Source: Zwartia panacis (GTDB lineage Bacteria; Pseudomonadota; Gammaproteobacteria; Burkholderiales; Burkholderiaceae_B). From it: a stretch of 64,000 nucleotides of DNA. This document shows positions 2,615 through 41,722 of the stretch, one piece after another (the first letter of the stretch is position 1; every line of letters begins with the position of its first letter). The notes beneath the pieces were generated by a model. It did not search any database, had not been told where the DNA came from, and was given only the letters and a program-made list of their open reading frames with translations. The stretch covers positions 310,001 through 374,000 of the forward strand of contig NZ_JAUHHF010000001.1 in the NCBI RefSeq assembly GCF_030410395.1, in the 5' to 3' direction. The position numbers and the translations under genes were made by a program.

Positions 2615-2634
2615 GATTGATTCCTGTCGAAAAC

Positions 2635-5098: not shown

Positions 5099-6028
5099 TT
5101 TACTCAGTGCCTGAGGATCAATATCCTCAATGATCGATTTCAAGTAGTCCACGAGCACTCTGACCTTGGCCGCCAGAGTGCTGCGCGGGAGGTGCACGAC
5201 AGAGACCTCCGGACCGGCGACCACATACTCTGACAGAATGCGCTGAATCTTGCCGGAACGCAGGGCGTTTCCCGCGATAAAGTCGCTCACCATCACAATC
5301 CCGGCGCCGGCGATTGCCGCCTCGAGCAGTGATTCTGCATTGTTGATGTTCAATGCGCCCGACACCACTTTTGTGAAATCCTGACCATTTTTGCTGAAAC
5401 GCCACTCCCTGTGATCTCCGGACATTGGAAGCAAATAAGCGAGGCAGTGGTGGTGATCCAAGTCATCTGGCGAGAGCGGCGTACCATGCCGAGCCAGATA
5501 TTCTGGAGAGGCGTAGGCAGCGAAGCTCAGATTGCACAGCCTGTGTGCCACGACCCGCTCGTCTGTGATCGGGCCGATCTGAATGACCGCATCGACAGCC
5601 TCATAGGTCAGATCAACCTGACGATCACTGAGTTCGATATCGATGCTCAGTTCTGGGTAGCGCTGGGTGAACTCCCACATTTTTGGGACGATGACGCGCC
5701 GTCCAAACCCGACAGGCATTTGCAGGCGCAAGCGCCCTTTAGGGGTGGCGGTCGTGGCGGTGACTGCGCTTTCAGCGTCTTCGATCTCTGTGAGGATTTG
5801 TCTGCAGCGCTCAAAAAAACTTGCTCCCTCTCCTGTTAAGTTCACAAGCCGGGTCGAGCGAGTCAGCAACTTGACCCCAAGTTCTTGTTCCAGACGGGCA
5901 ATGGATTTACTGATTGCGGAGGAAGTCAGGCCAAGTCTCTGGGCCGCCAGAGTAAAGCTACGTGTTTCTGCAACTTTGACAAAAACGAGGAGAGCATTCA
6001 AATTTCGCATGGACGACAGTGTACTCAT
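5087..6028 (-). CDS. LysR-family transcriptional regulator
   Basis: A 313-residue LysR-type regulator. It has an N-terminal winged helix-turn-helix (about residues 8-66, with AAQRLGLTSSAISKSIARLE as recognition region) followed by a periplasmic-binding-protein-like effector domain to the C-terminus. The sequence (RSFTLAAQRLGL, LLTRSTRLVNLTGEG) resembles the DmlR/AaeR-type group. It is on the same strand as the amidase operon and divergent from the MmgE/PrpD gene with a 102-bp gap, the usual layout for a LysR controlling one or both neighbours. An ATG six codons downstream is an alternative start. The effector is unknown but probably a hydroxy-acid intermediate (inference). Confidence 0.92.
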   Translation of the reverse strand: MSTLSSMRNLNALLVFVKVAETRSFTLAAQRLGLTSSAISKSIARLEQELGVKLLTRSTRLVNLTGEGASFFERCRQILTEIEDAESAVTATTATPKGRLRLQMPVGFGRRVIVPKMWEFTQRYPELSIDIELSDRQVDLTYEAVDAVIQIGPITDERVVAHRLCNLSFAAYASPEYLARHGTPLSPDDLDHHHCLAYLLPMSGDHREWRFSKNGQDFTKVVSGALNINNAESLLEAAIAGAGIVMVSDFIAGNALRSGKIQRILSEYVVAGPEVSVVHLPRSTLAAKVRVLVDYLKSIIEDIDPQALSKTEH

Positions 6029-6037
6029 GAATCAAAT
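6028..6037. repeat. Left arm of inverted repeat in LysR/PrpD divergent region
   Basis: TGAATCAAAT here is the exact reverse complement of ATTTGATTCA at 6116-6125. This arm overlaps the A of the LysR start codon. The arms bracket the whole divergent intergenic region, so each gene has the same sequence just before or at its start. Confidence 0.5.
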
Positions 6038-6115
6038 TCAGCAATAGCATTTTATTCTAGCGAATTGACCGTGGAAACATCAGTCGTTAGCATCGGGAAT
6101 TCAACATTAAGCTGC

Positions 6116-6125
6116 ATTTGATTCA
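6116..6125. repeat. Right arm of inverted repeat in LysR/PrpD divergent region
   Basis: ATTTGATTCA here mirrors the left arm at 6028-6037, with 78 bp between them. It ends 5 bp before the MmgE/PrpD start codon, in the usual ribosome-binding position. It could be a regulator half-site; this is not established. Confidence 0.5.
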
Positions 6126-6130
6126 AAACC

Positions 6131-7537
6131 ATGGAAAATCATCCCGCCTCCCTTTTGCCCGGCGCGACCCAAGCTCTGGCAGAGTTCGCCTCTTCTATTG
6201 AATATGGTGACATTCCCGCCGAGGTGATTCATCGGATGAAGACAAGCTTTCTGGATAGCGTCGGATGCTGCCTGTTTGGTGCGACACTTCCCTGGACGCA
6301 GCGTGTCCAGGCCATGATCGAAGAGGAGGGTGCCCGTCCGGTCGCCTCCATTTTTGGCGCGGGCGTTAAAACCTCGGTTGCGGGCGCTGTGCTGGTCAAC
6401 GCCACTGCCGGCCACGCATTTGAGCTGGATGACATCCATAAAGAGTCCATCGTCCATGCCGGTTCTATCGCAACCCCCGTTGTCGTCGCGCTGGCCGAAC
6501 AGATGGGCTGCAAAAGTGGCCAGAAATTATTAACCGCTATGACAACGGGCTATGAAATCGGGACGCGTGTCGGAAATGCCGCCACGATGGGACTGTTTTT
6601 CAGGGGCTTTCATCCTCAAGGTGCCTCGGGTGTGTTTGTCGCCGCAGCGAGCGCCGGCAAGATGCTGGAACTCGACGCTTTGCGCATGCAACATGCACTG
6701 GGTATCGTAGGATCTCAAGCCGGTGGTTTGATGGCCGCTCAGGAGGGAGCCATGGTCAAGCGATTCCACTCCGGACGTGCCGCCCAAAGCGGGGTCTATT
6801 CAGCCTATTTGGCCAAGCGTGACTTTACGGGGATCACCGATGTGCTGGAGGCGGGCTATGGCGGCTACCTGAGTTCTTATTCAAATACGCCGAACGCCGT
6901 CAGATTGACCGAGGACCTTGGACGTGTCTGGGAAACGGCTAAAGTGGGCTACAAACCCCATGCCTGCGTCACAAGTATTCACTCCGCGCTTGATGCCTTT
7001 GCTCATTTGTTGCGCGTGAATCAACTGACGCCCGATGATGTGAGTCAGGTCGATATTGGCATGAGTCCAATGACCTACACGCACTGCGCCTGGGAGTACA
7101 AGGCGCAGGGCGTCACAGCCGCGCAGATGAATCTTTATTATGGAATCGCTGTCATCGGTTTTGACGGAATGGCCTTTGTCGCGCAATACGCAGAAGATCG
7201 GCTGGCAGACCCCAAAATCATGGATTTCATTAAAAGAATCCATGCGCGGATTGATCCTGAAATCGAGGCGATGGGACCGGCTTATCGGCATGCGGCGCGC
7301 GTGACCATCACCGCACGGGATGGTCGACAATACAAGCATGAGATCTTGAATCGTAGGGGGAGTCCGGAAAACCCTCTGTCGCATGACGAAGTGGTATACA
7401 AGTTTCGTAATGTGGTCGCGTCTTGTTTATCCGGCAAAGATATTGATCGTGTGATTGCACTCACCGAGCAACTCGACACCACAACGGACACCTCGGAGCT
7501 CTTTGGTTTGCTGGCCGCTGCACGCAAGAGTGACTGA
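6131..7537 (+). CDS. MmgE/PrpD family protein
   Basis: A 468-residue member of the MmgE/PrpD family, which includes 2-methylcitrate dehydratase, cis-aconitate decarboxylase and iminodisuccinate epimerase. Characteristic segments are 'SFLDSVGCCLFGATLPW', 'GHAFELDDIHKESIVHAGS', 'GYEIGTRVGNAA', 'FHPQGASGVFVAAASAGKML' and 'KRFHSGRAAQSGVYSAYLA'. The HAFELDD and HPQG elements correspond to the usual active-site regions. It is divergently transcribed from the LysR gene and is a lone plus-strand catabolic gene before the zinc block. Because a methylisocitrate-lyase-like gene lies in the opposite operon, dehydration of a citrate-like tricarboxylate is plausible, but this family is too diverse to assign a substrate. 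Confidence 0.88.
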   Translation: MENHPASLLPGATQALAEFASSIEYGDIPAEVIHRMKTSFLDSVGCCLFGATLPWTQRVQAMIEEEGARPVASIFGAGVKTSVAGAVLVNATAGHAFELDDIHKESIVHAGSIATPVVVALAEQMGCKSGQKLLTAMTTGYEIGTRVGNAATMGLFFRGFHPQGASGVFVAAASAGKMLELDALRMQHALGIVGSQAGGLMAAQEGAMVKRFHSGRAAQSGVYSAYLAKRDFTGITDVLEAGYGGYLSSYSNTPNAVRLTEDLGRVWETAKVGYKPHACVTSIHSALDAFAHLLRVNQLTPDDVSQVDIGMSPMTYTHCAWEYKAQGVTAAQMNLYYGIAVIGFDGMAFVAQYAEDRLADPKIMDFIKRIHARIDPEIEAMGPAYRHAARVTITARDGRQYKHEILNRRGSPENPLSHDEVVYKFRNVVASCLSGKDIDRVIALTEQLDTTTDTSELFGLLAAARKSD

Positions 7538-29475: not shown

Positions 29476-30735
29476 TCAATGTTGCAAGGCAAGCGCTGCT
29501 TGACCTTTGGCGACTGTTTCCTTTCTGAAACTGAAATGCATCCAGATCAGAGAGATACAGACTGTTCCGTACAAAAGCATGAAAGCAGAGGTTCTGACGC
29601 CAGTAATGTCGACGAGCGCGCCAAACATGATGGGTAGCACGAAGCCTCCTAAACCTCCTGCCAAGCCCACAATGCCGGATACAGCGCCGATATTGCCGCT
29701 AAAGTCATCGGAGATGAACTTGAAGACCGAGGCCTTTCCGATGGCTGTGGCAATGCCCACCACGAAGAGCAAAATGGTGAAAATGGTTGGGGAAAGCGCA
29801 ATACGGAACGTGCGAGGTCCTTCAACGGTCAGGACAGTAAAGTCAGTCTGTGGGTAGCTCAGGAGAAAGAACGCGACCCAGCACACCCACATCACCCACC
29901 AGGTTGTTTGATAAGCGCCGTATTTATCTGAAATCCAGCCTCCGAGAGCACGTAACACTCCGCCCGGCAATGAAAAGCAGGCTGCCAAAAGTGCCGCAGT
30001 CTGAATGCTAAAACCATATTCGCCAACGTAATAACGTGTCATCCAGAGCGCGAGTGCGACATAGCCTCCAAACACAACCGAGTAGTACTGACAGTAGCGC
30101 CACACCCTCGGATCTTTGAGCATCTTGACTTGCTCTTTCAGACTGACCGAATTCGAAGCATTGTGCGAGGGATTGGTCGCCGAAAATATCCAGAAAAGAA
30201 TCGCGGTGACAAGCATGGCGATGGAATAAACCTGCGGAACTATTGTCCATGAACCACCCGCCATCACGATGAGTCCCGGGGCTACAAATTTAGTCAGTGC
30301 CGATCCTGAGTTGCCTGCTCCAAAAATACCCATGGCCAGACCTTGTCGGTTTTTAGGAAACCAGCGTGCGACATAAGGCGTACCCACAGAAAATGAGCCT
30401 CCTGCCAGCCCGACGAACATCCCGATGACCAAAAAATGCCAGTACTGTGTCGCGTACGACATCAACCAGATCGGTAGGACAGTGCTGAGCATCAGCAAAA
30501 AGAAAACGATCCTGCCACCGAAGCGGTCGGTCCATAATCCCAAAGGTACCCGTACCAGTGATCCTGTAAGAACAGGCATCGCGGCAAGCAGGCCAAACTG
30601 AGTTTCGCTGAGATCCAGTTGTTTTTTGATAGGGATGCCGATCACGGCAAACATCATCCAGACTGCAAAGCAGATTGTGAAAGCCAGGGTACTGGAGGTC
30701 AGAACCATGACGGATTTTCTTTGGTTTGGTTCCAC
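29476..30735 (-). CDS. narK1: Nitrate transporter, NarK1-type
   Basis: A 419-residue 12-helix major-facilitator nitrate carrier. The signature 'GGSFSVGTPYVARWFPKNRQGLAMGIFGAGNSGSA' and 'ISDDFSGNIGAVSGIVGLAGGLGGFVLPI' are typical of NarK1, a nitrate/proton symporter. The start codon is GTG at 30735, with AGGAG spaced 9 nt. First gene of the narK1K2GHJI operon. The 180-bp divergent region towards moaA holds inverted repeats that are probable regulator sites. Confidence 0.9.
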   Translation of the reverse strand: MEPNQRKSVMVLTSSTLAFTICFAVWMMFAVIGIPIKKQLDLSETQFGLLAAMPVLTGSLVRVPLGLWTDRFGGRIVFFLLMLSTVLPIWLMSYATQYWHFLVIGMFVGLAGGSFSVGTPYVARWFPKNRQGLAMGIFGAGNSGSALTKFVAPGLIVMAGGSWTIVPQVYSIAMLVTAILFWIFSATNPSHNASNSVSLKEQVKMLKDPRVWRYCQYYSVVFGGYVALALWMTRYYVGEYGFSIQTAALLAACFSLPGGVLRALGGWISDKYGAYQTTWWVMWVCWVAFFLLSYPQTDFTVLTVEGPRTFRIALSPTIFTILLFVVGIATAIGKASVFKFISDDFSGNIGAVSGIVGLAGGLGGFVLPIMFGALVDITGVRTSAFMLLYGTVCISLIWMHFSFRKETVAKGQAALALQH

Positions 30736-30837
30736 GGTAGTGGTCTCCTGAGTCGTTCGTGTTTGATAGTGAACAGACTACGAGACTGGTGATGCTTTGC
30801 CCATTCTCCGTTGGCGGGAGACGGGCGAAGCAATGGA

Positions 30838-30865
30838 CCTAGTTCCCCCCTACTTTAGGACTAGG
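30838..30865. promoter_or_regulatory. Nested inverted repeat in narK1/moaA divergent region
   Basis: CCTAGT (30838-30843) and ACTAGG (30860-30865) form outer arms, and CCTA (30849-30852) and TAGG (30856-30859) inner arms separated by CTT. It resembles the G-tract/GGACTAGTCC element before narG when read on the other strand. Probable binding region for the nitrate or oxygen regulator (inference). Confidence 0.4.
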
Positions 30866-30915
30866 CCCTTTTAGCCGAATGACGCATGGCTAAATTCAGC
30901 ACTGAGGGCGAGAAT

Positions 30916-31914
30916 ATGTGTATGGATAATCATCTCGCTCCACTTGTTGACCGGTTTGGTCGAAAAATCGACTATTTGCGCTTAAGCGTGACAGATCGTT
31001 GTGATTTGCGTTGCAGCTATTGCATGCCTAAAAGTTTCAAAGGGTTTGAAGAGCCGGGAGACTGGCTCACTTTTGATGAAATTGAACGTGTGGTGGGTAT
31101 TTTTGTGCGCATGGGGACGACCCGGGTTCGTTTAACGGGAGGAGAGCCCCTGTTGCGTCGTCACCTGCCGAGACTGGCGGGACGTTTGAGTCAACTGCCG
31201 GGCTTGTCCGACCTGTCGCTCTCCACCAATGGAACACAATTGGTCAAACATGCCGAGGCTTTATACGAAGCAGGTGTCAGGCGCCTCAATATCAGCATGG
31301 ATACCTTATCGAGAGATTGCATGATCCAGATTACCGGGCGAGATTCGATGAGTGCGGTGATGTCCGGTCTGGATATTGCGCAAGCTATTGGTTTTGCACC
31401 GATCAAACTGAATATGGTGGTGATGCCTGGTATTAATTTATCGGAAGTGCAGGCAATGGCCGAGTTTTGTATCAACCGCGGACTGATTCTCAGGCTCATT
31501 GAAACCATGCCCGTAGGCAGTACGGGTTTGAAGAGCGGCTTTACCCCGCTTGGTCCGATCGTTGAGTCGTTGCGTCAACGTCTGGATTTGATTCCTGAAA
31601 TCAAGGTGATGGGAGGAGGGCCGGCGCGTTATTGGCGGACAAGGGATGGAAAAGGTCAAATCGGACTGATTACGCCGATGAGTCAGCATTTTTGTGAAAC
31701 ATGCAATCGTCTGCGGATGTCAGTGGATGGCACGATTTATCTTTGTCTGGGTGAAGATGAAAAGGTCGAGCTTAGACCCTATCTGCGCGGCGGTGCGACA
31801 GATGCCGACATCGAGCACGTATTGCGTGAGGCAATTGAGCTCAAGCCAGAGCGTCATCACTTTAATGAAACACCCGAAAAAATTGTGCGGTTCATGTCGC
31901 AAACGGGTGGCTAG
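30916..31914 (+). CDS. moaA: GTP 3',8-cyclase MoaA (molybdenum cofactor)
   Basis: A 332-residue radical SAM enzyme that starts molybdopterin biosynthesis from GTP. The N-terminal cluster is CDLRCSYCMP (CxxxCxxC), followed by 'TRVRLTGGEPLLRRHLPRL'. The C-terminal second [4Fe-4S] cluster is supplied by the Cys in FCETCNRLRMSVDGTIYLCLG. The C-terminal GG (QTGG) is retained. Start 30916 follows GAGG with 8-nt spacing; ATG 30922 and an earlier ATG 30886 without a ribosome site are alternatives. A copy divergent from narK1 suggests co-induction to supply cofactor to NarG; other moa genes are not in the window. Confidence 0.93.
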   Translation: MCMDNHLAPLVDRFGRKIDYLRLSVTDRCDLRCSYCMPKSFKGFEEPGDWLTFDEIERVVGIFVRMGTTRVRLTGGEPLLRRHLPRLAGRLSQLPGLSDLSLSTNGTQLVKHAEALYEAGVRRLNISMDTLSRDCMIQITGRDSMSAVMSGLDIAQAIGFAPIKLNMVVMPGINLSEVQAMAEFCINRGLILRLIETMPVGSTGLKSGFTPLGPIVESLRQRLDLIPEIKVMGGGPARYWRTRDGKGQIGLITPMSQHFCETCNRLRMSVDGTIYLCLGEDEKVELRPYLRGGATDADIEHVLREAIELKPERHHFNETPEKIVRFMSQTGG

Positions 31915-31929
31915 ATCCTGGAAATTGCT

Positions 31930-32595
31930 ATGCCAAAACATGATTTGGAAAAATTCATCAATGGTTTTGAACGTTTTCAAAAAACCTACTACGGTGACGA
32001 TCACGAGCTCATCGAGGAGCTTACTCAGGCTCAACACCCCCGTACTTTTTTGATTGGTTGCTGTGATTCACGGGTCGATCCCGCGCATTTGATGGGGGCA
32101 GAACTCGGTGAGTTGTTTGTGTCCAGAAATGTTGCAAATTTAGTACCACCATGCGAGGCGAGCGAGGGGAGTCATCATGGCGTCAGTGCTGCAATTCAGT
32201 TTGCAGTCCAGAATCTCCAAGTGGAACGAATTATTGTGCTGGGTCACGCTAGATGTGGTGGTATCCGCGCTTTGATGGACGACACTCGGATCAAAGAGCC
32301 AGTTGATTTCATTTCATTGTGGGTCAACATTGCCGAATCTGCTAAACGTGAGACCTTAGCGGCGTTTGGCGAGGCACCTTTCGAGGTCAAGTGCAAAGTC
32401 TGCGAACAATCGTCTATCCTGAATTCCCTGAACAATCTGATGAGCTTTCCCTGGATACAGCAGGCGTTGGAGGAAAAGCGCTTGACCTTGCATGGCTGGT
32501 ACTTTGATCTTGAGGCAGGAGAGTTGCTCGCTTACTCCAAGCGCGCAGGCACTTTTTTACCAATGGTATGCGCCTTGAATCCCTCCCTTGAATAA
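31930..32595 (+). CDS. Beta-class carbonic anhydrase
   Basis: A 221-residue beta-carbonic anhydrase. Zinc ligands are seen in CCDSRVDPAHLMGAELGELFVSRNVANLVPP (Cys, with the Asp-Arg dyad) and GHARCGGIRALMDD (His and Cys). It interconverts CO2 and bicarbonate in the cytoplasm. It lies 15 bp after moaA and 41 bp before narX, embedded among nitrate-respiration genes, so it is probably transcribed with them. It may supply bicarbonate for carboxylation or help pH balance under denitrifying growth (inference). Confidence 0.93.
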   Translation: MPKHDLEKFINGFERFQKTYYGDDHELIEELTQAQHPRTFLIGCCDSRVDPAHLMGAELGELFVSRNVANLVPPCEASEGSHHGVSAAIQFAVQNLQVERIIVLGHARCGGIRALMDDTRIKEPVDFISLWVNIAESAKRETLAAFGEAPFEVKCKVCEQSSILNSLNNLMSFPWIQQALEEKRLTLHGWYFDLEAGELLAYSKRAGTFLPMVCALNPSLE

Positions 32596-32636
32596 GAAAG
32601 ACTAAACTACGGTGTCTATTGCAAAAAGTTCAAACG

Positions 32637-34625
32637 ATGACCGCGACCGCGAATCAAACGAACCTGCGGAATATAGTGGAGTCCATTCGGGAGCCTGAGT
32701 CTGCTGGCGCCCGGATGTCAATCGGCCGTAATTACCGGCTCGGTGTCAGGCTGGTGTCTGTAGCCTTGACCACGCTTGTATTTGGACTGACCATGGTGAT
32801 GGTCACGCTTTGGCTATCATGGGCACTCGAAGGCGCTGCCGCGGCGATTAACGACACGGGGAGTCTACGCATGCAGTCTTTGCGCGTGGGCTTGCTGATG
32901 ACCGAACAGCCGGTTTCCCAAAAAGAAATTGTCGAACGCGCAAGTTTTTTTAATAACACCTTGCTCGCACTGCGCGAGGGGGATCCGCAGCGACCGATGC
33001 GCCTGCCAAAGTCCGATGCTGTTCAAGAGCAGTTTGAGCGCGTACGCTACATGTGGATTGAACAGTTACAACCTGCACTCATGCGTGTTGAATCAAGTCT
33101 GGGGCAGGATCGCGCATCGATTCAATCTTATCTCGAGGATTTGCCAGAGTTCGTCAAGCAATCCGATACGCTGGTTTCCTTGATTGAAGCGCAAAATGCC
33201 AGGGATACAGCATTGTTGCGTGGCTCTCAGATGGCCGTGATTGTTTTGATGATTGCGGGCTGTGTGGGTATTGTTTATTTACTGTACGGATGGGTCATCA
33301 GACCTGTCGAATCACTTCGTCTGGGTATTGCTCAAATGTCCACTCGAAACTTCGCTTACAGAGTGCCTGTGGAGGGAGGTGACGAGCTTGGGGAGCTTGC
33401 GCGGGGATTCAATGATATGGCCTCTCAGCTCAGCCATTTGTATCGTGATCTGGAACAGAGAGTTGAGGAAAAAACGCAGCAACTGGCCCAGCAAAATCGC
33501 GAAATTTCGACCTTGTACGAATTTTCCGCCTACTTGAGTCAGGCAGGGGATCTTGAGCAGCGGTGCCAAGGATTTCTGGCGCGTTTGATCGAATATTTCT
33601 CAGCTGATGGTGGAACTGTCAGGATTTTGGATCCGCGTCAAAAGAACTTGCATTTGACTGTCCATCAGGGACTTTCGCTTGATTTCGTCAAACAAGAACA
33701 GTGTTTACATGCAGGCGATTGTTTATGTGGAGAGGCTTCTGAAAAAGGTGTCATGGTCTTGCACGATTTTCGCAAATTGCCACAGGAGTTTAGTTTGCGA
33801 TGCCGCGAGGAAGGTTTTACGGCGATTGCCATTGCGCAGATTATTCATGCAGGACAGCAGTTAGGTAGCTATACCTTGCACTTTCAGGAACCTCGGGATT
33901 TTTCCGCAGACGATAGGCGTCTGTTCAATACTTTGGGTCAGCATTTGGGTGTCGCGATCGAAAACCAGCGACTGCTCGCCCGAACGCGTGAGCTTGCGAT
34001 CGCCGAGGAGCGTAACCTCATGGCTCAAGGATTGCACGACTCGATTGCTCAAGGATTGAATTTTCTGAAGCTACAGGTTCAGATGCTGGAGGATTCAATC
34101 GCGAGAGGTAAAGATGATGAGGTGAAGGAGGTCATTCAGTTGATTGAGCTTGGCGTGCGCGAAAGTTATGATGATGTGCGCGAGCTCTTGACGAATTTTC
34201 GAATCAAACTCGATGAGGGCGATATCGTCGAGGCGTTACGAGCATCAGCCGAGCGCTTTAAAAAACAAACCGGCATTGCCGTTTCCGTCCAGGTGGTGCA
34301 TCAGGGTCCTCCCTTGCCGCCAGAGCAGCAGCTACAAATCCTTTTCATTGTTCAAGAGGCACTTTCAAACATTCGTAAACACGCGAATGCGCATCAAGTC
34401 AAAATCATTCTGGATGATCATGACGACTTCAATTTGACGGTTTCTGATGACGGACAGGGCTTTGACATAAAATCTTCGAACGCAAATGAAGAACAGCACG
34501 TGGGTTTAAAGATTATGCGTGAACGAGCCTTGAGGCTACAAGCCATTCTGTCCGTCGTATCTGAGCCAGCATCGGGAACATCCATTTCCCTGAGTCTCCC
34601 TAAAGAAAATCGTACCACCGGTTAG
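32637..34625 (+). CDS. narX: Nitrate/nitrite sensor histidine kinase NarX
   Basis: A 662-residue sensor kinase. It has TM1 (about 35-60), a periplasmic domain whose P-box (AAAAINDTGSLRMQSLRVGL) closely matches the nitrate-binding P-box of NarX/NarQ, TM2 (about 190-210), HAMP, a coiled coil (EEKTQQLAQQNREI), a GAF-like central module, and a HisKA_3 core with His in GLHDSIAQGLNFLK. The ATPase domain follows (DDGQGFDIKS). The central module has a Cys group (QCLHAGDCLCGEA plus a later Cys), as in E. coli NarX. ATG 32637 is used; TTG 32619 and ATG 32715 are alternatives. Two bases separate narX from the GTG preceding narL. Confidence 0.93.
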   Translation: MTATANQTNLRNIVESIREPESAGARMSIGRNYRLGVRLVSVALTTLVFGLTMVMVTLWLSWALEGAAAAINDTGSLRMQSLRVGLLMTEQPVSQKEIVERASFFNNTLLALREGDPQRPMRLPKSDAVQEQFERVRYMWIEQLQPALMRVESSLGQDRASIQSYLEDLPEFVKQSDTLVSLIEAQNARDTALLRGSQMAVIVLMIAGCVGIVYLLYGWVIRPVESLRLGIAQMSTRNFAYRVPVEGGDELGELARGFNDMASQLSHLYRDLEQRVEEKTQQLAQQNREISTLYEFSAYLSQAGDLEQRCQGFLARLIEYFSADGGTVRILDPRQKNLHLTVHQGLSLDFVKQEQCLHAGDCLCGEASEKGVMVLHDFRKLPQEFSLRCREEGFTAIAIAQIIHAGQQLGSYTLHFQEPRDFSADDRRLFNTLGQHLGVAIENQRLLARTRELAIAEERNLMAQGLHDSIAQGLNFLKLQVQMLEDSIARGKDDEVKEVIQLIELGVRESYDDVRELLTNFRIKLDEGDIVEALRASAERFKKQTGIAVSVQVVHQGPPLPPEQQLQILFIVQEALSNIRKHANAHQVKIILDDHDDFNLTVSDDGQGFDIKSSNANEEQHVGLKIMRERALRLQAILSVVSEPASGTSISLSLPKENRTTG

Positions 34626-34629
34626 CGTG

Positions 34630-35283
34630 ATGACTTCTCCCATAAAAGTTTTACTTGTCGATGACCATGCTCTTTTTCGCAGCGGCATCAAGTTATTGTT
34701 ACAGCGAAACCATGATTTCGAAGTCGTGGGCGAGGCGTCTGACGGCATTGAGGGCGTCAAGCGTGCGAAAGCATTGCAGCCTGATGTGGTCTTGCTCGAT
34801 TTGCATATGCCTGGACTTTCTGGTCTGGACGCGATCAAGTTGATTCAAGAAGAGGTCCCTGCTTGCCGTATTATTCTGTTGACAGTTTCAGAAGAGGGCG
34901 AGGATCTCACGACAGCGTTGAAAAATGGGGCGGTTGGCTATCTGCTCAAGAACATTGATGCAGACTTTTTTCTCGATGCGATTCGGCGCGCCATGCAAGG
35001 TGACTCAGTTATTTCCAATGAAATGACAGCTAAACTCGTCGCGAATTTGCGTCGAGGCCATGAACCGATCCCCACCGAAATCAGCAAACTCACCCCGCGA
35101 GAGGGTGACATTCTTTCTCAGCTTGCTTCTGGTTTGAGTAACAAGGAAATTGCCCGAGAACTGAACTTGGCCGAGAGTACCGTCAAAATTCATATTCAGA
35201 GTATTTTGAAGAAGCTGGGGCTATCCAATCGCGTGCAGGCGGCGATTTATGCTGTTGAGAGAGGTTTTGGCATTCAGCACTGA
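34630..35283 (+). CDS. narL: Nitrate response regulator NarL
   Basis: A 217-residue NarL/FixJ-type regulator. The receiver has the acidic pair VDDHALFRSG, phospho-acceptor Asp in VVLLDLHMPG, and conserved Thr/Lys further on. The C-terminal HTH is LTPREGDILSQLASGLSNKEIA plus the recognition helix around AESTVKIHIQSILKKLGL. It is activated by NarX and controls nar operon transcription. ATG 34630 is preferred to the GTG at 34627. Its last 101 bp overlap, on the opposite strand, the 3' end of the convergent Crp/Fnr-family gene. Confidence 0.94.
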   Translation: MTSPIKVLLVDDHALFRSGIKLLLQRNHDFEVVGEASDGIEGVKRAKALQPDVVLLDLHMPGLSGLDAIKLIQEEVPACRIILLTVSEEGEDLTTALKNGAVGYLLKNIDADFFLDAIRRAMQGDSVISNEMTAKLVANLRRGHEPIPTEISKLTPREGDILSQLASGLSNKEIARELNLAESTVKIHIQSILKKLGLSNRVQAAIYAVERGFGIQH

Positions 35284-35977
35284 GTGTTTCAAACGTCACA
35301 TCAAGCTGGGGAGCATGGCGCTTCAGAGCTTCGCCGTCAATGATGGTGATTTTTGTTTTATCTACGATGATACATTTCTCATCGATGAGCTGATGCAACG
35401 CACGGGAAAATGTCTCGGGTTGTAATCCAAGTTTGGATGCTATCGTGCGTTTAGGAAGTGACAGATCGATTTCATGTCCCAGAGTCGAGTTTTGAAGTAA
35501 ATAATCCGCGACTCTGGCGGCGGCGGAGGGTAGATTCACGACCTCGATATCGTGCAGGAGGGTTTCGAATCTTAGGGCCAGACCATTCACTATCTTTTTC
35601 ATAAATAGTGGGTTTGAGGTCATGATACTGAGGAGTGCATCGCGTTCGATATGCACGAGCAACGTGTCTTCGAGCGCCTGGGCATCGATCAGGTACGGAT
35701 GCTCCAGAAACATCACCGCTTCGCCGAAGTGTTGGCCGGTTCCGAAAAATTCAATCACTTTGTCGTGTTCATGGACGCCAGGAATTGAGATTTTGACTTT
35801 CCCAGTCATGACGACGTAAAGACCTGTTGCGCGATCGCCTCGCTTGATGACATAACCGCCCTTTGCCAGTCGCACAATTTTGGAGGCTTGCGCCAGATAT
35901 TCTCTTTCTTTGCAACTGATGTCATCAACAAGTGGTATGTGTTTCAGCAGTTGACTGAGTGATATCTGATGCCCCAT
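35183..35977 (-). CDS. Crp/Fnr-family regulator, Dnr-like
   Basis: A 264-residue regulator with a cyclic-nucleotide-binding-like sensor domain (about 15-130; 'KGGYVIKRGDRATGLYVVMTGKVKI', 'FGEAVMFLEHPY') and a winged HTH ('DLSLPKRTIASKLGLQPETFSRALHQL'). It lacks the N-terminal cysteine cluster of Fnr; only one Cys is near residue 22. It is thus not an oxygen-sensing iron-sulfur Fnr but belongs with Dnr-type heme/NO regulators. The recognition helix contains E-x-x-S-R as in Fnr/Dnr. ATG 35977 is chosen over GTG 35986. About 40 residues beyond the normal end are encoded, mostly opposite the NarL gene. It lies 5 bp after the nrdG stop. Confidence 0.85.
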   Translation of the reverse strand: MGHQISLSQLLKHIPLVDDISCKEREYLAQASKIVRLAKGGYVIKRGDRATGLYVVMTGKVKISIPGVHEHDKVIEFFGTGQHFGEAVMFLEHPYLIDAQALEDTLLVHIERDALLSIMTSNPLFMKKIVNGLALRFETLLHDIEVVNLPSAAARVADYLLQNSTLGHEIDLSLPKRTIASKLGLQPETFSRALHQLIDEKCIIVDKTKITIIDGEALKRHAPQLDVTFETLSAECQNLSQQHKSPPARDWIAPASSKYSEYEF

Positions 35978-35982
35978 TTCTC

Positions 35983-36687
35983 TCACCTATAAGAAAAGGT
36001 TTCAAACAGATCCTTTAAATGACTGAGTGCGAGAGGACTGAGTGAAACATTGCTAGTGTGCGTCCCTGGAGATCTGAAACGCTGTAAGGCATATTCCCTC
36101 ACACCTTGCTGGGACAAGCTTTGCGCTAAATCAATTAATTCGCTTTCAGACAGCCAGTCGGGTGACCAGGTTGTCCTGCACTCAAAATTTCCGCCCCAGT
36201 CCAGTAATATCTCGAGAGACTGTGCTGTTTGCTCGAAGCTTTTGGCCTGTCCAGTCAATTTTTCATAATGGCGTTCAGTCGTTTTAATATCCAATGCGAC
36301 CCATTGAAGTTCTGGAAGGATCTTTTTCAGACGTCCCGGATACATGCCTGCCGTGTGAAGCGCAAGCCCAAAACCTTGTTGTCGGATGTCAAGTGTCATC
36401 TGCTCAAAAAATGGATCACTCAGGGGCTCTCCGCCTGACAATACAACGCCGTCTAATAAAGCAGCACGAGATTTTAAAAAAGAAAGTATTTGTGACCAGC
36501 TTTCAGCTTTCTGACGTGTTTGGAGGTGAGGGTTATGGCAGTAGTGACACCGCCACGGACAGCCTGAGATAAAGACGGTGCTTGCAAGTTTTCCTGGCCA
36601 GTCTACAGTTGAAAAGGGCGTGAACCCTCCAACGGAAGGTCCATCATTTTTACGCTTTGTTTGATTCAGTAAAGAACTGACGCTCAT
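35983..36687 (-). CDS. nrdG: Anaerobic RNR activating protein NrdG
   Basis: A 234-residue radical SAM activase. The cluster motif CPWRCHYCHNPHL (CxxxCxxC) is at about 40-52, followed by VVLSGGEPLSDPFF. The domain resembles PflA/NrdG-type activases. It generates the glycyl radical on NrdD under anoxia. Start ATG 36687 follows AAGGGTG with 9-nt spacing; a GTG at 36696 is in frame. Its 5' end overlaps the small glycyl-radical ORF by 38 nt, consistent with coupled expression. Confidence 0.92.
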   Translation of the reverse strand: MSVSSLLNQTKRKNDGPSVGGFTPFSTVDWPGKLASTVFISGCPWRCHYCHNPHLQTRQKAESWSQILSFLKSRAALLDGVVLSGGEPLSDPFFEQMTLDIRQQGFGLALHTAGMYPGRLKKILPELQWVALDIKTTERHYEKLTGQAKSFEQTAQSLEILLDWGGNFECRTTWSPDWLSESELIDLAQSLSQQGVREYALQRFRSPGTHTSNVSLSPLALSHLKDLFETFSYR

Positions 36688-36832
36688 TGAATTCACCCTT
36701 TTTGCCGATATTGAACGAGCTCACCGGACGGTGATAGCCCATCACTCGTGTCCAGACTTCGCAGCGGGTTCTTAGGTGGTCTGGCGGTAAGTGACTGTTG
36801 TTGATGTTTGATTGGCTTGTGCTGTTTGCCAT
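36650..36832 (-). CDS. Stand-alone glycyl-radical C-terminal segment of class III RNR (split NrdD)
   Basis: A 60-residue ORF whose second half, RCEVWTRVMGYHRP followed by VSSFNIGKKGEFNER, corresponds to the C-terminal glycyl-radical tail of NrdD (the RVxGY motif surrounds the radical Gly, about residue 32). The main nrdD chain stops 18 nt upstream and lacks this tail. The two are in the same reading frame, separated by one TAA and six sense codons, and this ORF has its own ribosome site GAGGAG 9 nt before the ATG. Either the reductase works as two polypeptides, analogous to the GrcA/YfiD spare part of pyruvate formate-lyase, or a nonsense change or sequencing error split it. The intact frame and good ribosome site favour the former. 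Confidence 0.8.
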   Translation of the reverse strand: MANSTSQSNINNSHLPPDHLRTRCEVWTRVMGYHRPVSSFNIGKKGEFNERQFFTESNKA

Positions 36833-36850
36833 GATTGAATGCTCCTCGGG

Positions 36851-38623
36851 TTAGGTGATTTGAGTTTGGTTGCTTGGGTTAGACTGTTTGAGTGATACTG
36901 CTTGACCAAGTTTTTCCTGGGCGATGATTTCAGCATCGCATTTTGGACAAAACTCGTGATGACCGGATAGATATCCGTGTCTTGGACAGATTGAAAATGT
37001 GGGGGTGATGGTCAGGTAAGGCACTCTAAAGTTGCTTAGGGCGCGTCTGACGAGTTGCTTACAGGCTTGTGCACCCGATATCGCCTCACTCATATAGAGG
37101 TGAAGCACGGTTCCGCCGGTGTACTTCGATTGCAACGTTTCTTGCAGGCTCAGTGCTTCAAAGGGATCATCTGTATAGCCCACGGGGAGTTGACTCGAGT
37201 TGGTGTAGTAGGGCTGATCATCGGTACCCGCTTGCAAAATATCTGGCCAACGCTTCTTGTCTTCTTTTGCGAAACGATAGGTTGTTCCCTCTGCGGGTGT
37301 GGCCTCGAGGTTGTAAAGATGTCCGGTCTTTTCTTGAAATTCAGTCATCCGCATTCTGACATGATCAAGAAAGCGTAGGGCAAACTCATGGCCTTGTGGC
37401 GAGGATATATCAAAAGTGTCGTGACTGAAGTTTCTGAGCATCTCGTTGATACCGTTGACCCCGAGCGTACTGAAATGGTTTCTCAGCGTACCCAGATAGC
37501 GCTTGGTATAGGGGTACAGTCCTTCGTCGATGTATTTTTGAATCGTTGTTCTTTTGCGCTCCAAAACATCGCATCCCAAGTTCAAGAGTTCGTCCAGGCG
37601 ATCCATCAGCGCGCCTTCGTTGCCTGCATAGAGATATCCCAGTCTTGCGCAGTTGATCGTGACAACGCCCACACTACCTGTTTGCTCGGCTGAACCAAAG
37701 AGTCCATTGCCTCGCTTGAGCAGTTCGCGCAGATCGAGTTGAAGGCGGCAGCACATTGAACGCACCATATGTGGTTCAAGATCTGAATTGAGAAAGTTTT
37801 GAAAGTATGGCAAACCATACTTGGCCGTCATTTCAAACAATGGCGACGTATTAGGGTGTTCCCAGGGAAAGTCTTTCGTGATGTTGTAGGTGGGGATGGG
37901 AAAGGTAAAGGCGCGACCCAGCGCATCTCCAGCCATCATCACATCAATGTAGGCACGGTTGATCATATCCATTTCTTTTTGCAAATCACCATAAGAAAAT
38001 GGCATCTCAATACCACCGACGTAGGGGATTTGCTCTTTGAGATCTGCGGGACACGTCCAGTCAAAGGTGAGGTTGGTGAAAGGTGTTTGTGTACCCCAGC
38101 GACTCGGGACATTCAGGTTGTAGATCAGTTCCTGCATGCATTGCCGGACTTGTTGATACGTCATTTCATCTTTGCGGATAAACGGCGCCATATAGGTGTC
38201 AAAGGAACTGAAGGCTTGCGCGCCAGCCCATTCGTTTTGAAGGGTTCCCAAAAAATTAACGATCTGACCGATCGCGGCAGACATGTGTTTCGCGGGTGAG
38301 GCCTCCACTTTTCCGGGAACACCGTTAAAGCCTTCCCTGAGGAGTTGACGCAGCGACCAACCTGCGCAGTACCCTGAAAGCATATCCAGATCGTGTATGT
38401 GGAGATCTCCATTGCGGTGTGCATCACCCGATTCGGGACTGTATATGTGGGATAGCCAGTAGTTCGCCGTGACTTTGCCCGCTACATTGAGAATCAGACC
38501 GCCCAGGCTGTATCCCTGGTTGGCGTTGGCATTGACGCGCCAGTCACGTTGCTCGAGATACTCTTCCATCGCTTGTTCAACGTTGACGCTGACGGGAAAT
38601 TGTGTGGTGATTGAAGGATTCAT
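36851..38623 (-). CDS. nrdD: Anaerobic ribonucleoside-triphosphate reductase NrdD, main chain lacking glycyl-radical tail
   Basis: A 590-residue class III reductase chain. Catalytic barrel segments are visible: 'HRNGDLHIHDLDMLSGYCAGWSL', 'ANEWAGAQAFSSFDTYMAPFIR'-type QNEWAGAQAFSSFDTY, and 'VVTINCARLGYL'. Near the C-terminus is the zinc motif CPRHGYLSGHHEFCPKCD. There is no N-terminal ATP-cone. The chain ends about 25 residues after the zinc motif, before the RVxGY glycyl-radical tail, which is instead in the next ORF (36650-36832). ATG 38623 is used because an upstream GTG (38665) lies within a putative NrdR operator. Makes dNTPs from NTPs with formate during anoxic growth; two NrdR-box-like sites precede the gene. 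Confidence 0.9.
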   Translation of the reverse strand: MNPSITTQFPVSVNVEQAMEEYLEQRDWRVNANANQGYSLGGLILNVAGKVTANYWLSHIYSPESGDAHRNGDLHIHDLDMLSGYCAGWSLRQLLREGFNGVPGKVEASPAKHMSAAIGQIVNFLGTLQNEWAGAQAFSSFDTYMAPFIRKDEMTYQQVRQCMQELIYNLNVPSRWGTQTPFTNLTFDWTCPADLKEQIPYVGGIEMPFSYGDLQKEMDMINRAYIDVMMAGDALGRAFTFPIPTYNITKDFPWEHPNTSPLFEMTAKYGLPYFQNFLNSDLEPHMVRSMCCRLQLDLRELLKRGNGLFGSAEQTGSVGVVTINCARLGYLYAGNEGALMDRLDELLNLGCDVLERKRTTIQKYIDEGLYPYTKRYLGTLRNHFSTLGVNGINEMLRNFSHDTFDISSPQGHEFALRFLDHVRMRMTEFQEKTGHLYNLEATPAEGTTYRFAKEDKKRWPDILQAGTDDQPYYTNSSQLPVGYTDDPFEALSLQETLQSKYTGGTVLHLYMSEAISGAQACKQLVRRALSNFRVPYLTITPTFSICPRHGYLSGHHEFCPKCDAEIIAQEKLGQAVSLKQSNPSNQTQIT

Positions 38624-38626
38624 TTG

Positions 38627-38642
38627 ACACTCTATGTTGTGT
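38627..38642. promoter_or_regulatory. NrdR box, proximal to nrdD
   Basis: ACACTCTATGTTGTGT (read on minus ACACAACATAGAGTGT) matches 14 of 16 positions of the NrdR consensus acaCwAtATaTwGtgt. It ends 3 nt before the nrdD start codon. The partner box begins exactly 32 bp further upstream. Confidence 0.75.
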
Positions 38643-38658
38643 TGTTTGATGAATCCTA

Positions 38659-38674
38659 ACACCACATGTTGTGT
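38659..38674. promoter_or_regulatory. NrdR box, distal to nrdD
   Basis: ACACCACATGTTGTGT is a near-perfect palindrome matching the NrdR consensus at about 13 of 16 positions. The box-to-box distance of 32 bp (three helical turns) is the spacing typical of paired NrdR boxes. Confidence 0.75.
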
Positions 38675-38700
38675 TTCAATGAAAAATCATTCGACTTCTT

Positions 38701-39264
38701 TCAAATCGCTTGATTGAGGTCAAGCGTCCTGTGGCCTCTGCGTAACGCCATGTTCATGCCAATCGTGCGAAGCGTTTCTGGGGGAAGAAACTGGGCGTGG
38801 GGATAGATGGACTTTTCTTCCCGATCTGCATGATGCACGTATTTTGTAGCAAACTCATCCAGACACATTGGCGTTGTACCCGGTTTGTTTTCAACAATGT
38901 CTCTGAGCCAATTTTCAATTTCGCTCCACAGCACGCCGAGTGCGACGTGCTCTGTTTCAAGCTCTTGAATAGTGATGTTCAAATTTTTATATGACTCTTC
39001 ACCAAGCGTTGCTGGAGATAAATGCATGAGCGCTGGAAAAAGATCATCTTCTTCGTCCTGGTGATGAAGCGGAGCTGCGATCGTGAAATATCTGAGTACA
39101 GACTCGGCGGCTTCTTGTGCTTTCCTATCGATTCCCTTTTTCTCGATGTGATGCGCGATTCGCTGGGTCAGTGTCGCGAATCGTCTGATTTTTTCATGGC
39201 AGGCTTCGAGTAGTTCGATGGGTGAATCGAAGCCTGCACTGTGAAGGGAAAAAAAATCAGTCAC
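38701..39264 (-). CDS. Hemerythrin-domain protein
   Basis: A 187-residue four-helix-bundle protein of the hemerythrin HHE family. Di-iron ligands are expected in HHQDEEDDLFPALMHL (helix 2), ETEHVALGVLW (helix 3) and YVHHADREEKSIYPHAQF (helix 4), with a further His in LLEACHEKIRRF (helix 1). It may bind O2 or NO. Its start overlaps the stop of the YtfE/NorA-type gene by 4 nt, so it is translated with it, probably under the NorR-controlled promoter. The 3' end of the gene carries an Fnr-box-like sequence near nrdD. Confidence 0.88.
   Translation of the reverse strand: MTDFFSLHSAGFDSPIELLEACHEKIRRFATLTQRIAHHIEKKGIDRKAQEAAESVLRYFTIAAPLHHQDEEDDLFPALMHLSPATLGEESYKNLNITIQELETEHVALGVLWSEIENWLRDIVENKPGTTPMCLDEFATKYVHHADREEKSIYPHAQFLPPETLRTIGMNMALRRGHRTLDLNQAI
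38710..38723. promoter_or_regulatory. Fnr/Dnr-box-like site upstream of nrdD
   Basis: TTGATTGAGGTCAA matches TTGAT-N4-ATCAA at 9 of the 10 defined positions. It lies in the last codons of the hemerythrin gene, 87 bp upstream of the nrdD start, a position suited to activation by the nearby Crp/Fnr-family regulator. Coincidence with coding constraint (Leu-Asp-Leu-Asn-Gln) cannot be excluded. Confidence 0.5.
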
Positions 39265-39959
39265 GCTATGTGGGCCTGTGTCGGAGCCGCTGATCGATCA
39301 GCCATGAAAAGAATATTGTTTTCAAGATGAATGTGTTGCATCAGATCCTCCCTGAGTTGACGTAAACCTGCGTATAGCGCGCGCCAAGTATTGCAGGCAT
39401 CAGCTGGCGCGATGATGTCGTTGGTCAATTGTTCGAGATGCGCGAGCGCCTCACCATGTTGATCATGCTCAAAGCGCATCATTGAGATCGGTGCGGACAC
39501 TTGCGCGGCGCTGGCTCGACGCAGCATTGGAAATAAGATCTGTTCTTCTTTCATCATATGACTTTCAAGCTCTTGCTGCATATCTGAGAGATGATCGGCG
39601 AGACCTTTCGGACAATCGGCGCGCTCTCCGTGCACTTGTTCGACTCGACGCGCAAGTCGAATGAGTTCGGGCAAACCCTCCCTGTGTTGCTGGTGGTACC
39701 TCACCAGAATGTGATCGATTAAGGCGTCGTTGCTCTTCTCATGCCAGGGAGAGTGTGTGGTTTCAGTTTGGGTCGCCATGAGTTTGGCGAGCCGATCGAA
39801 GATCGGTTGAGGGTTGTTTATTTTGCGTCGTTCGAGAGTTTCGCGCAGACTGCGATGACCACCGCAGCAAAAATCGAGTTTGTATTCATGAAAGATTTGT
39901 GTGGCGCCAGGAACGTCGCAGGCGATTGAGCCGATGGAGCGGTCGAGTAGATCAGTCAT
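39261..39959 (-). CDS. norA: Di-iron iron-sulfur-cluster repair protein, YtfE/NorA/ScdA-type
   Basis: A 232-residue RIC-family protein. The N-terminal ScdA domain shows DVPGATQIFHEYKLDFCCGGHRSL, with the paired Cys (CCGGH), and the C-terminal hemerythrin-like domain has HHQ..-type ligands in VRYHQQHREGLPELIR, ESHMMKEEQILFPML, MRFEHDQHGEAL and MQHIHLENNILF. Members repair NO-damaged clusters or bind NO in the cytosol. Start 39959 has AAGGA spaced 7 nt. Divergent from norR with a sigma-54 promoter and three NorR-type operators between them, the norA arrangement of Ralstonia eutropha; norB (NO reductase) is not adjacent here. Confidence 0.9.
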   Translation of the reverse strand: MTDLLDRSIGSIACDVPGATQIFHEYKLDFCCGGHRSLRETLERRKINNPQPIFDRLAKLMATQTETTHSPWHEKSNDALIDHILVRYHQQHREGLPELIRLARRVEQVHGERADCPKGLADHLSDMQQELESHMMKEEQILFPMLRRASAAQVSAPISMMRFEHDQHGEALAHLEQLTNDIIAPADACNTWRALYAGLRQLREDLMQHIHLENNILFMADRSAAPTQAHIA

Positions 39960-39993
39960 GTCATTTCCTTTTATGAGTGTGTATACCACTCAA

Positions 39994-40010
39994 AGCAAAT
40001 GCCATGCCAG
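39994..40010 (-). promoter_or_regulatory. Sigma-54 promoter of the norA/ytfE operon
   Basis: Minus-strand CTGGCATGGCATTTGCT matches the sigma-54 consensus YTGGCACGRNNNTTGCW at all but one position, with GG at -24 and GC at -12. The expected transcript start is near 39984, about 25 nt before the ATG at 39959. It fits NorR being a sigma-54 activator. Confidence 0.85.
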
Positions 40011-40049
40011 TTTGTAACTTATTGAATTAATTCGATTTAATTTTTAATT

Positions 40050-40062
40050 GGTTAAAAATACC
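40050..40062. promoter_or_regulatory. NorR operator 1
   Basis: GGTTAAAAATACC fits GGT-N7-ACC, the NorR core motif known from Ralstonia eutropha. Nearest of three copies to the sigma-54 promoter, 40 bp upstream of its -24 element. Confidence 0.8.
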
Positions 40063-40073
40063 TTTTAATATTT

Positions 40074-40086
40074 GGTTAAAAGTACC
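40074..40086. promoter_or_regulatory. NorR operator 2
   Basis: GGTTAAAAGTACC fits GGT-N7-ACC and differs from operator 1 at a single base. Starts 24 bp from operator 1. Confidence 0.8.
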
Positions 40087-40094
40087 ATTTTTAG

Positions 40095-40107
40095 GGTTAA
40101 TATAACC
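40095..40107. promoter_or_regulatory. NorR operator 3
   Basis: GGTTAATATAACC fits GGT-N7-ACC and is a near-perfect palindrome. Starts 21 bp from operator 2 and ends 49 bp before the norR start, so it may also influence norR itself. Confidence 0.8.
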
Positions 40108-40156
40108 TTATTCATGCGGTCTCTCGCTTTATTCTTACAAAAGCTCAATCACCACG

Positions 40157-41722
40157 ATGAATGCTGAACTGTCTTTAATTGCAGACATGATTGCAGACTT
40201 GCCACGCGCAGTCCGCGCACAGCGAATGGTACGTTCGATTCGCGATCAATTTAATTGTCACGCTGTCGGATTGTTAAGACTAGAAGGAGACACTCTTGCA
40301 CCGGTTGCATTTGAGGGACTGACGCGCGAGGCGATCGGTCGGCGGTTTGTGATCGCACAGCATCCCAGGCTAGTGAGCATTTTATCGACACGCACCCCTG
40401 TTCGTTTCCTCCCTGGTAATCCTTTGCCTGATCCTTATGATGGCTTGCTCGATGATCGCGTCGGCGAGCCTTTGCCAGTGCACGACTGCCTGGGGATGAG
40501 TCTTCATCTCGAAGGCCACCTGTGGGGCGCATTGACACTTGATGCGTTTGAAGGAAAGTCCTTCAAGGCAACAGATATTGAACGGTTAAGTGCTTTTGCT
40601 TTGGTGGTCGAGGCCGCCGTACGCGTGTCTCGCCTCGAAGAGGAAAATCGAAGTCTGCGTCTTTTCAGAGGAAGCGATTCGATCGATCGTTCGACGGTGA
40701 GTGTTCCAGATGAAATCCTGGGGCAAAGTGCTGTGATTCAAGCTGTGTTGCGTGAGCTTGACGTCGCCGCTGAGTCAGACCTGCCCATTTTGTTACTCGG
40801 TGAAACAGGCGTGGGTAAAGACCTGTTCGCGCAGCGGGTGCATCGTCAGTCTCTCAGACATCGGGGACCTCTGGTTCAGGTCAATTGTGCCGCCTTGCCT
40901 GAGTCGTTGGCTGAAAGCGAATTGTTCGGACATATCAAAGGGACATTTTCGGGCGCGACGGCGGACCGTGTTGGACGCATTGAGGCTGCAGAAGGGGGGA
41001 CATTGTTTATGGACGAGGTTGGTGAGTTGCCGCTCTCCATTCAGGCAAAACTGTTACGTACGCTTCAAAACGGAGAGATTCAGCGGTTGGGCGAAGATAC
41101 CCCCCGCAAGGTCAATGTTCGCTTTGTATCGGCCACCAATCGCCAGCTGCAGGAAAGTGTCAGAGCTGGACGCTTCCGGGCCGATCTATACCATCGACTC
41201 TCGGTATACCCAGTACATATTCCTCCTTTGCGTGAGCGCGGGACGGATGTGCTGATTCTTGCGGGACGCTTTCTCGAGATTAATCGCTCCCGTTTGGGAT
41301 TGCGTAGTATCAGATTATCGGAGCGTTCGGAGATTGCATTATGTCGTTACGACTGGCCTGGTAACGTCAGGGAGTTAGAGCACGTGATCAGTCGAGCCGC
41401 CTTGCGGGCAGTCAGCCGTGGTGCGGATCGCAACGATATTCTGACTCTTGAACCAGAGTTGCTATTGTTGGAAAACTCAGATCGAGTCATTGTTCATGCG
41501 TCTAGCAAACTCGAGTCTGACATATCAGATCAGGAACAGAAATTGAGTTCTCACGAAACGCTATCGATGCGTCAGGCTACCGAGTTGTTTCAACGCCAAC
41601 TCATACAGCGCGAGTTAGCGCGTTTTCAAGGTAATTGGGCCAAGGTATCTCGCAGTCTGGGGATTGATACGAGCAATTTGCATAAACTTGCGAAACGATT
41701 GGGGCTCAAGGATGCTTCGTAG
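40157..41722 (+). CDS. norR: Nitric-oxide-responsive sigma-54 activator NorR
   Basis: A 521-residue enhancer-binding protein. It has an N-terminal GAF domain (about 1-165) that in the family holds a mononuclear iron sensing NO, then an AAA+ domain (about 190-425) with Walker [13 protein letters not shown], the ESELFGH segment, Walker [14 protein letters not shown] and the arginine-finger region, then a C-terminal Fis-type HTH (about 480-521). The sigma-54 contact loop reads GTFSGA rather than canonical GAFTGA. It activates the divergent norA/ytfE promoter through three GGT-N7-ACC sites. The last 17 bp overlap the convergent LysR gene. Confidence 0.93.

Follow-up and report, generated by a model that had tools for sequence, protein, structure and literature searches.

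The window analyzed here (64,000 nucleotides of contig NZ_JAUHHF010000001.1 of Zwartia panacis, positions 310,001-374,000; all coordinates below are window positions) carries on its minus strand the genes of a class III ribonucleotide reductase (RNR) whose catalytic chain, NrdD, lacks the glycyl-radical loop, the loop being encoded by a short separate open reading frame (ORF) downstream, henceforth the tail (Table 1). The nrdD gene opens with ATG at 38623 and closes with TAA at 36853-36851; six sense codons (P E E H S I) separate this stop from the tail ATG at 36832, both ORFs share one frame, and the tail ends in a TAA of its own (36652-36650). The first-pass annotation of this DNA had described such a division, with the RVMGY loop in a same-frame ORF of 60 residues preceded by its own GAGGAG, and the coordinates bear it out, as does the Pfam domain PF13597 (NRDD), of which profile positions 2-528 are found in NrdD (residues 33-563, E 6.9e-175) and positions 532-562 in the tail (residues 23-54, E 1.4e-7). 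Its statement that NrdD ends after the zinc motif needs a small correction, as the chain runs 28 residues past the motif, and it made no mention of the overlap of tail and nrdG, whereby the ATG of the latter (36687) lies inside the tail ORF; the listed nrdG ORF opens at GTG 36696. A search of the whole Zwartia panacis genome found no second PF13597 match elsewhere, leaving a single pair.

Table 1. Features of the class III RNR locus (window positions)
Feature	Position	Strand	Basis
nrdD, large catalytic chain of class III RNR, 590 aa, without glycyl-radical loop	36851-38623	-	PF13597, PRK08270
Tail, separate glycyl-radical subunit (predicted), 60 aa	36650-36832	-	ORF, PF13597 match, conserved core
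Tail ribosome-binding site GAGGAG, 9 nt before tail ATG	36842-36847	-	sequence, family-wide pattern
Predicted radical glycine codon (tail residue 32, RVMGY loop)	36737-36739	-	sequence, PF13597 match
Finger-loop motif MCCR, NrdD residues 290-293, thiyl-radical site region	37745-37756	-	sequence
Zinc motif CPRHGYLSGHHEFCPKC, NrdD residues 546-562 (metal binding predicted)	36938-36988	-	sequence
nrdG, radical-SAM (S-adenosylmethionine) activase (NrdG2)	35983-36687	-	TIGR02495, E 3.6e-54

The locus displays an NRDD domain on the catalytic chain, finger-loop cysteines (of a motif class set out in PMC9669993), a C-terminal zinc motif and an NrdG in the operon, all of them features of class III RNRs; it departs from the class in that the glycyl-radical loop is not on the same polypeptide. 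The best NCBIfam model for the large chain, PRK08270 (E 0), aligns only from profile position 98 onward, the window NrdD being devoid of the N-terminal ATP-cone region present in longer relatives such as that of Cupriavidus necator, and because of this its overall activity regulation by dATP (deoxyadenosine triphosphate) may have been lost.

A Crp-like regulator (PF00027, PF13545) follows next after nrdG, and the wider neighborhood (29476-41722) is one of nitrate and nitric oxide respiration, with NorR, YtfE and MoaA above their family cut-offs and NarK-, NarX/NarQ- and NarL-like proteins scoring below theirs; a carbonic anhydrase-like protein and a second hemerythrin protein are also found there. 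An FNR/DNR-like box at 38710-38723, about 90 nt upstream of nrdD and one mismatch from TTGATNNNNATCAA, is not significant, the window holding six such one-mismatch boxes as against 3.5 expected, a number reached in 16 of 100 shuffles.

Two genes and, very probably, two polypeptides

The subfamily of the window NrdD was represented by 173 unique sequences (200 before collapsing), loci scoring below 400 bits or ending short of query residue 550 having been left out. The tail gene stands just downstream of nrdD in 145 of them, one has its tail far off, five have none in the stretch covered, three are truncated and the remainder are fused; of the five, L223 runs in one open frame into the tail and is better counted as fused, and the other four have a tail elsewhere in the genome. 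Physical separation goes furthest in four genomes where the tail lies apart from nrdD: in G043 it is found with nrdG some 9.5 kb away, and in G1043, G1067 and G890 it is on another contig and not within the 1.4-1.5 kb after nrdD, nrdG travelling with it in G1043 and being absent from the short stretches around it in G1067 and G890.

Tails open with ATG in 142 of 143 cases (three bacterial tails with another motif were left out of the tail statistics), and a ribosome-site match of 5-6 nt precedes the start in 109 of 143, as against 3% of 1382 control windows chosen alike. Counting from the radical glycine, R-11, R+3, N+9, G+11, K+12, E+15 and R+19 are each kept in all 143 tails and C-8 in 139; columns -5 to +1 served to find the rows and are therefore not independent evidence of conservation, and alignments A2 and A3, which misplaced tails, were not used. 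Two related genomes (L191 and L226) hold divergent tails that read RSMGF in place of RVMGY. Zwartia vadi shares the nrdD/tail arrangement of the window together with its common frame, and the changes between the two species in the tail core and in NrdD are mostly synonymous.

We consider it very probable that the locus encodes a class III RNR with its glycyl radical on a small subunit of its own, and the existence of separate tail genes with their own starts across relatives supports, at the level of genes, the two-polypeptide assembly that the first-pass annotation had envisaged. In the mechanism that we propose, the nrdD chain would fold into a ten-stranded barrel carrying both the zinc site and the finger-loop cysteines; the 60-residue tail, translated from its own start, would dock on NrdD in trans and bring its glycine beside the finger-loop cysteine; and NrdG, encoded beside the tail and overlapping it, would put the radical on the tail.

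The tail might instead be a spare part in the manner of GrcA/YfiD, serving an oxygen-cleaved NrdD or another glycyl radical enzyme without being a stoichiometric subunit, an idea to which its size and supposed action in trans, both reminiscent of YfiD and of the T4 protein Y06I (PMC8683613), as well as the existence of phage-borne copies, as for Y06I, lend some appeal. We nonetheless regard it as improbable, since the large chain carries no radical loop that could be repaired, no full-length NrdD with its own loop accompanies the tail in the genome (a single PF13597 pair; an enzyme of the pyruvate formate-lyase type was not searched for), and only NRDD models match the tail, at E up to 0.001 in Pfam and up to 1 in NCBIfam, with no glycyl-radical domain of the pyruvate formate-lyase type.

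Still less probable is a single chain produced by stop-codon read-through or frameshifting, or a TAA that is merely a sequencing error, explanations that draw on the frame shared in the window, in Zwartia vadi and in others (36 of the 145 split loci) and on a window gap of only 18 nt. The remaining 109 tails lie in the other two frames (59 and 50), which excludes read-through as a general mechanism; the gap from nrdD stop to chosen tail start varies from -38 to 287 nt (median 46, n = 142), and most tails have their own start and ribosome site, some of them standing apart from nrdD altogether. A sequencing error is further contradicted by the same arrangement in Zwartia vadi, a different species, and all three variants are rejected as a general explanation.

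Breadth, function and history of the split

The suspicion voiced in the first-pass annotation that the split might be lineage-wide is supported. Among the best 80 of 521 relatives' species contigs, ranked by match to the window NrdD, 76 carry a separate tail beside nrdD. Of the other four, L092 (Simkaniaceae) is fused, two run into a contig edge and L099 has no tail nearby, the genomes behind the last three all holding a separate tail. When whole genomes are considered, NRDD matches occur in 23 of 61 (the window's own genome and relatives) and a separate tail match in 22 of these 23, a proportion that argues against a chance split; the exception, G039, has one fused chain of another type. One genome, its assembly rated 86% complete, shows a tail only (G003), and the large chain is in fragments in G018 and G027. 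An even sample of the class, 369 genomes, gave 38 with NRDD matches, read as 28 split, 7 fused and 3 undecided, and 398 genomes of the phylum gave 57, mostly with fused NrdD of another subclass, many of whose C-termini were inspected; the split is therefore a trait of one subfamily and not of class III as a whole. Within that subfamily it is found across Burkholderiales genomes and beyond, in Alphaproteobacteria, other Gammaproteobacteria, a Campylobacterota plasmid and metagenome-assembled genomes of Coriobacteriia and Chlamydiae.

Of 33 split genomes tested, 16 showed no class I/II catalytic chain (PF02867), namely G097 and 15 of 16 from the other class, apparently alphaproteobacterial by their position on the tree beside named ones. 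In three of the 16 (G097, G588 and G619) a family-level NRDD search likewise shows only the split NrdD, although the two parts in G619 share a frame and come out as a single match that contains two TAA; the others were covered by a strict search that could miss a distant fused NrdD. Being the only RNR detected in these three genomes, the split enzyme must, on the genomic evidence, work there. The earlier assertion that the tail is essential and not a back-up is only partly supported, for the Zwartia panacis genome also has one class I/II-type catalytic chain, so that its class III enzyme would matter only in anoxia. That the split gene is decaying and non-functional, which might be tolerated where a class I/II chain is present, is very unlikely and is rejected as a general explanation, given the strongly conserved tail core with mostly synonymous change, the many groups spanned by the split and the genomes in which no other RNR was found.

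Several points weigh against our interpretation. The 173 sequences are biased toward the window's relatives, as searches retain the best matches, and even among them the split is not obligatory, 19 being fused (20 with L223). The tail N-terminus is poorly kept between the window and Zwartia vadi (3 codons the same, 4 synonymous, 12 nonsynonymous), and a class I/II chain is also present in 17 of the 33 split genomes tested, the window's included. A fold model of the read-through chain of NrdD plus tail has confidence below 50 over the junction (584-609), the radical glycine itself (629-631) and residues 637-645, and in a fold comparison whose listed rows are RNRs and glycyl radical enzymes the alignments to the top-scoring PDB entries stop at about residue 541; AlphaFold moreover has seen NrdD structures, and we take the model as weak evidence for tail docking. 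Finally, the tail protein and its complex with NrdD are predictions from genes.

A quick tree of the large chain (167 rows), hand-rooted for drawing on four distant fused chains and counting changes but not their direction, requires at least seven changes between split and fused forms. Uniting every split form in one clade is rejected, this being 271.8 log-likelihood units worse (p-AU, from the approximately unbiased test, 9e-53) on a thinned quick tree of 61 rows (45 split against 16 fused) with two long outgroups left out. Fused chains comprise the four distant outgroup rows (L112, L113, L136 and L187), an alphaproteobacterial clade (L190, L235-L240) and single rows or small groups amid split ones (L092, L114, L184/L189, L185, L217/L222). 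They are scattered on the tree; close relatives with one uninterrupted frame, named in the first-pass annotation as evidence that would count against the split, were looked for, and no fused chain is among the window's nearest rows. The nested fused forms L092, L217, L222 and L232 retain a split-type linker and may be re-fusions. We take the split to be ancient, with several reversions or recurrences. Oxygen exposure as its cause found no backing, COX1 (PF00115) being present in 25 of 40 split or unlinked and in 9 of 15 fused genomes, with no association; the test is a weak one, as PF00115 also covers nitric oxide reductases.

Tails in phages and other mobile elements

Tails are also found in phage-like and viral sequences. 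The genome G327 holds a second tail on a 61-kb contig together with RecE-like, RecT-like, RNR large-chain, primase, replication-initiator, helicase, RtcB and HNH genes; PHROG matches make this contig phage-like, a plasmid being the alternative, and no structural gene was seen among the 20 ORFs tested on it. Element and host tails are identical at 146 of 165 nt and at 36 of 37 core residues (43 codons the same, 6 synonymous, 6 nonsynonymous), whereas the 60 nt flanking them on each side do not match by eye, and such near-identity within unmatched flanks reads as a recent transfer. G1152 also has a second tail, which reads RVMGD and has a phage head-maturation protease gene (phrog_976, E 3.7e-79) for a neighbor. 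PHROG 4132, of 'unknown function', takes in both the window tail and that of the G327 element.

Scans of IMG/VR with two tails as queries returned 140 and 82 matching stretches, overlapping, of which 80 each were kept (149 loci). Seventeen of the 149 were missed by the motif pattern, ten of which were re-inspected and do carry a tail; the remaining loci hold 71 distinct tails, of which L398 is false, which leaves 70 among the matches kept. In the flanks covered, at most 5 kb on each side, an NrdD main chain is present for L275 alone, and none of the 70 has an NrdG nearby. Likewise, in 49 of 50 whole viral records (15-108 kb, and possibly fragments) the NRDD match is confined to the tail or C-terminal end, the record of L275 having the large chain, and no class I/II RNR was found in any of the 50. 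L275 itself (IMG/VR record G1113) combines the main chain and a separate tail; some 0.4 kb separates the two NRDD matches within its 818-residue NrdD frame, perhaps owing to an insertion. INPHARED phage genomes yielded only two weak records.

By analogy with the part that Y06I of T4 plays for pyruvate formate-lyase, we think it rather likely that the viral tails are mobile radical subunits serving host NrdD. The tail gene would then move independently, into phages and other mobile elements too, where it would most likely supply fresh radical-bearing subunits to the NrdD of the host; where phage copies meet a fused host NrdD, the spare-part explanation may apply. A rather unlikely alternative is that these tails are not for host NrdD at all and represent misbinned bacterial fragments, NrdG decoys or proteins with another role: neighbors were checked at seven loci only, one of which (L316) gave no PHROG match near the tail (0/6), the records may be fragments with no hosts assigned, and 15 of the 67 viral tails with a usable start lack a ribosome-site match (32 have a strong one, and 59 begin with ATG). 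At the other six loci (L263, L371, L274, L292, L285 and L269), however, structural, packaging, integrase or lysis genes of phages adjoin the tail, and R-11, N+9, K+12, E+15 and R+19, columns not used for finding, are invariant in all 70 viral tails (G+11 is kept in 69, C-8 in 66); the near-identical pair in G327 speaks against this alternative as well. Compared with their best bacterial counterparts (n = 69), viral tails share 26-37 of 37 core residues (median 30), the core of L289 being identical.

Some viral loci depart from the common form. Ten tails (L371, L276, L286, L299, L302, L362, L366, L373, L374 and L393) have at least three cysteines before the core, in a stretch that is possibly zinc-binding. 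The archaeal virus ANMV-1 (L399, 3686-4120) encodes a 145-residue protein, annotated as anaerobic RNR, with a cysteine-containing stretch and an RIVGY loop, the barrel being absent from that coding sequence. A reverse transcriptase (RVT_1; 1829-3061), possibly part of a diversity-generating retroelement, lies near the tail in L292, with an integrase (5156-6403) on the other side, and in the faecal phage record MT835493 (L400, about 4001-4099) an NrdD-type C-terminus is followed in frame, by eye, by glutaredoxin-like sequence.

Relation to known enzymes and implications

The canonical class III enzymes (NrdD of E. coli, T4 and T. maritima) resemble the one described here in barrel, finger loop, zinc motif, radical-loop sequence and NrdG, and the fold model aligns with the NrdD of T4 and that of T. 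maritima as far as into the tail; they differ from it in that here the radical loop is in a separate gene. GrcA/YfiD of E. coli and Y06I of T4 are also small free-standing glycyl-radical proteins acting in trans, one of them phage-borne (PMC8683613), but they restore an intact enzyme after oxygen damage, whereas here the large chain is without a loop and the tail is of NrdD type. According to that 2021 paper (PMC8683613), spare-part proteins had been validated only for pyruvate formate-lyase and were put forward as a possibility for other glycyl radical enzymes. The catalytic subunit of NrdJab of Pseudomonas aeruginosa likewise consists of two chains (PMC4520616 and PMC9669993), yet it is a class II cobalamin enzyme, whereas the window chain is an NRDD protein of class III. 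The nrdD genes of Aeromonas phage phiAS4 and Lactococcus phage 949 are similarly spread over several ORFs, owing to introns, inteins or fragmentation in single phages, and the available text of PMC3653736 describes no conserved separate radical-loop gene for them.

The split extends to the cultivated bacterium C. necator H16, where NrdD (NC_005241; 676 residues, computed 76.2 kDa) has at residue 650 the glycine of CPTHGYLAG, a zinc motif, to which the HGY glycine of CPRHGYLSGHHEFCPKC in the window corresponds. The RVMGY glycine is encoded there by a separate 66-residue coding sequence, H16_RS32675, that starts 142 nt after the nrdD stop. Siedow et al. in 1999 reportedly described a 76.2-kDa NrdD from Alcaligenes eutrophus (now C. 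necator) H16 in which G650A was inactive, residue G650 being taken as the radical site. The match with that account is imperfect, the annotated activase computing to 25.4 kDa and not to the reported 30.9; if the account is right, G650A most likely hit the zinc site, because residue 650 lies in CPTHGYLAG and RVMGY is in a separate gene, which suggests that the reported radical-glycine assignment in C. necator needs re-examination. Several plasmid records annotate both parts as anaerobic RNR and others leave the tail unannotated or as a hypothetical protein, and no annotation examined states that the large chain and the tail form one enzyme. A full-text literature search, with most subscription journals outside its coverage, found no description of this split NrdD or of phage NrdD tails, and the separate NrdD radical subunit and the orphan viral tails are new with respect to the literature searched.

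What was computed comprises two genes, their conserved starts and ribosome sites, the lack of a fixed frame, conservation, the single genomic copy, genomes with no other RNR detected, orphan viral tails and the G327 pair; docking in trans, a radical carried by the tail and a benefit to the phage are inferred. The fullest picture, which we favor only slightly, is that of an exchangeable mobile radical subunit: in cells it would belong to an obligate two-chain enzyme, and phages would carry the host-derived tail alone, sometimes with a cysteine-rich N-terminus and in a third form in ANMV-1, to drive anaerobic deoxynucleotide synthesis in the host and possibly to bring NrdD cleaved by oxygen back into action. 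An enzyme of DNA-precursor synthesis would have a radical subunit that is separate by nature, in cultivated bacteria such as C. necator H16 and as orphan viral genes; PHROG 4132 gains a function to test; and the locus would offer a natural two-piece system in which to study how NrdG installs the radical on a small free protein.

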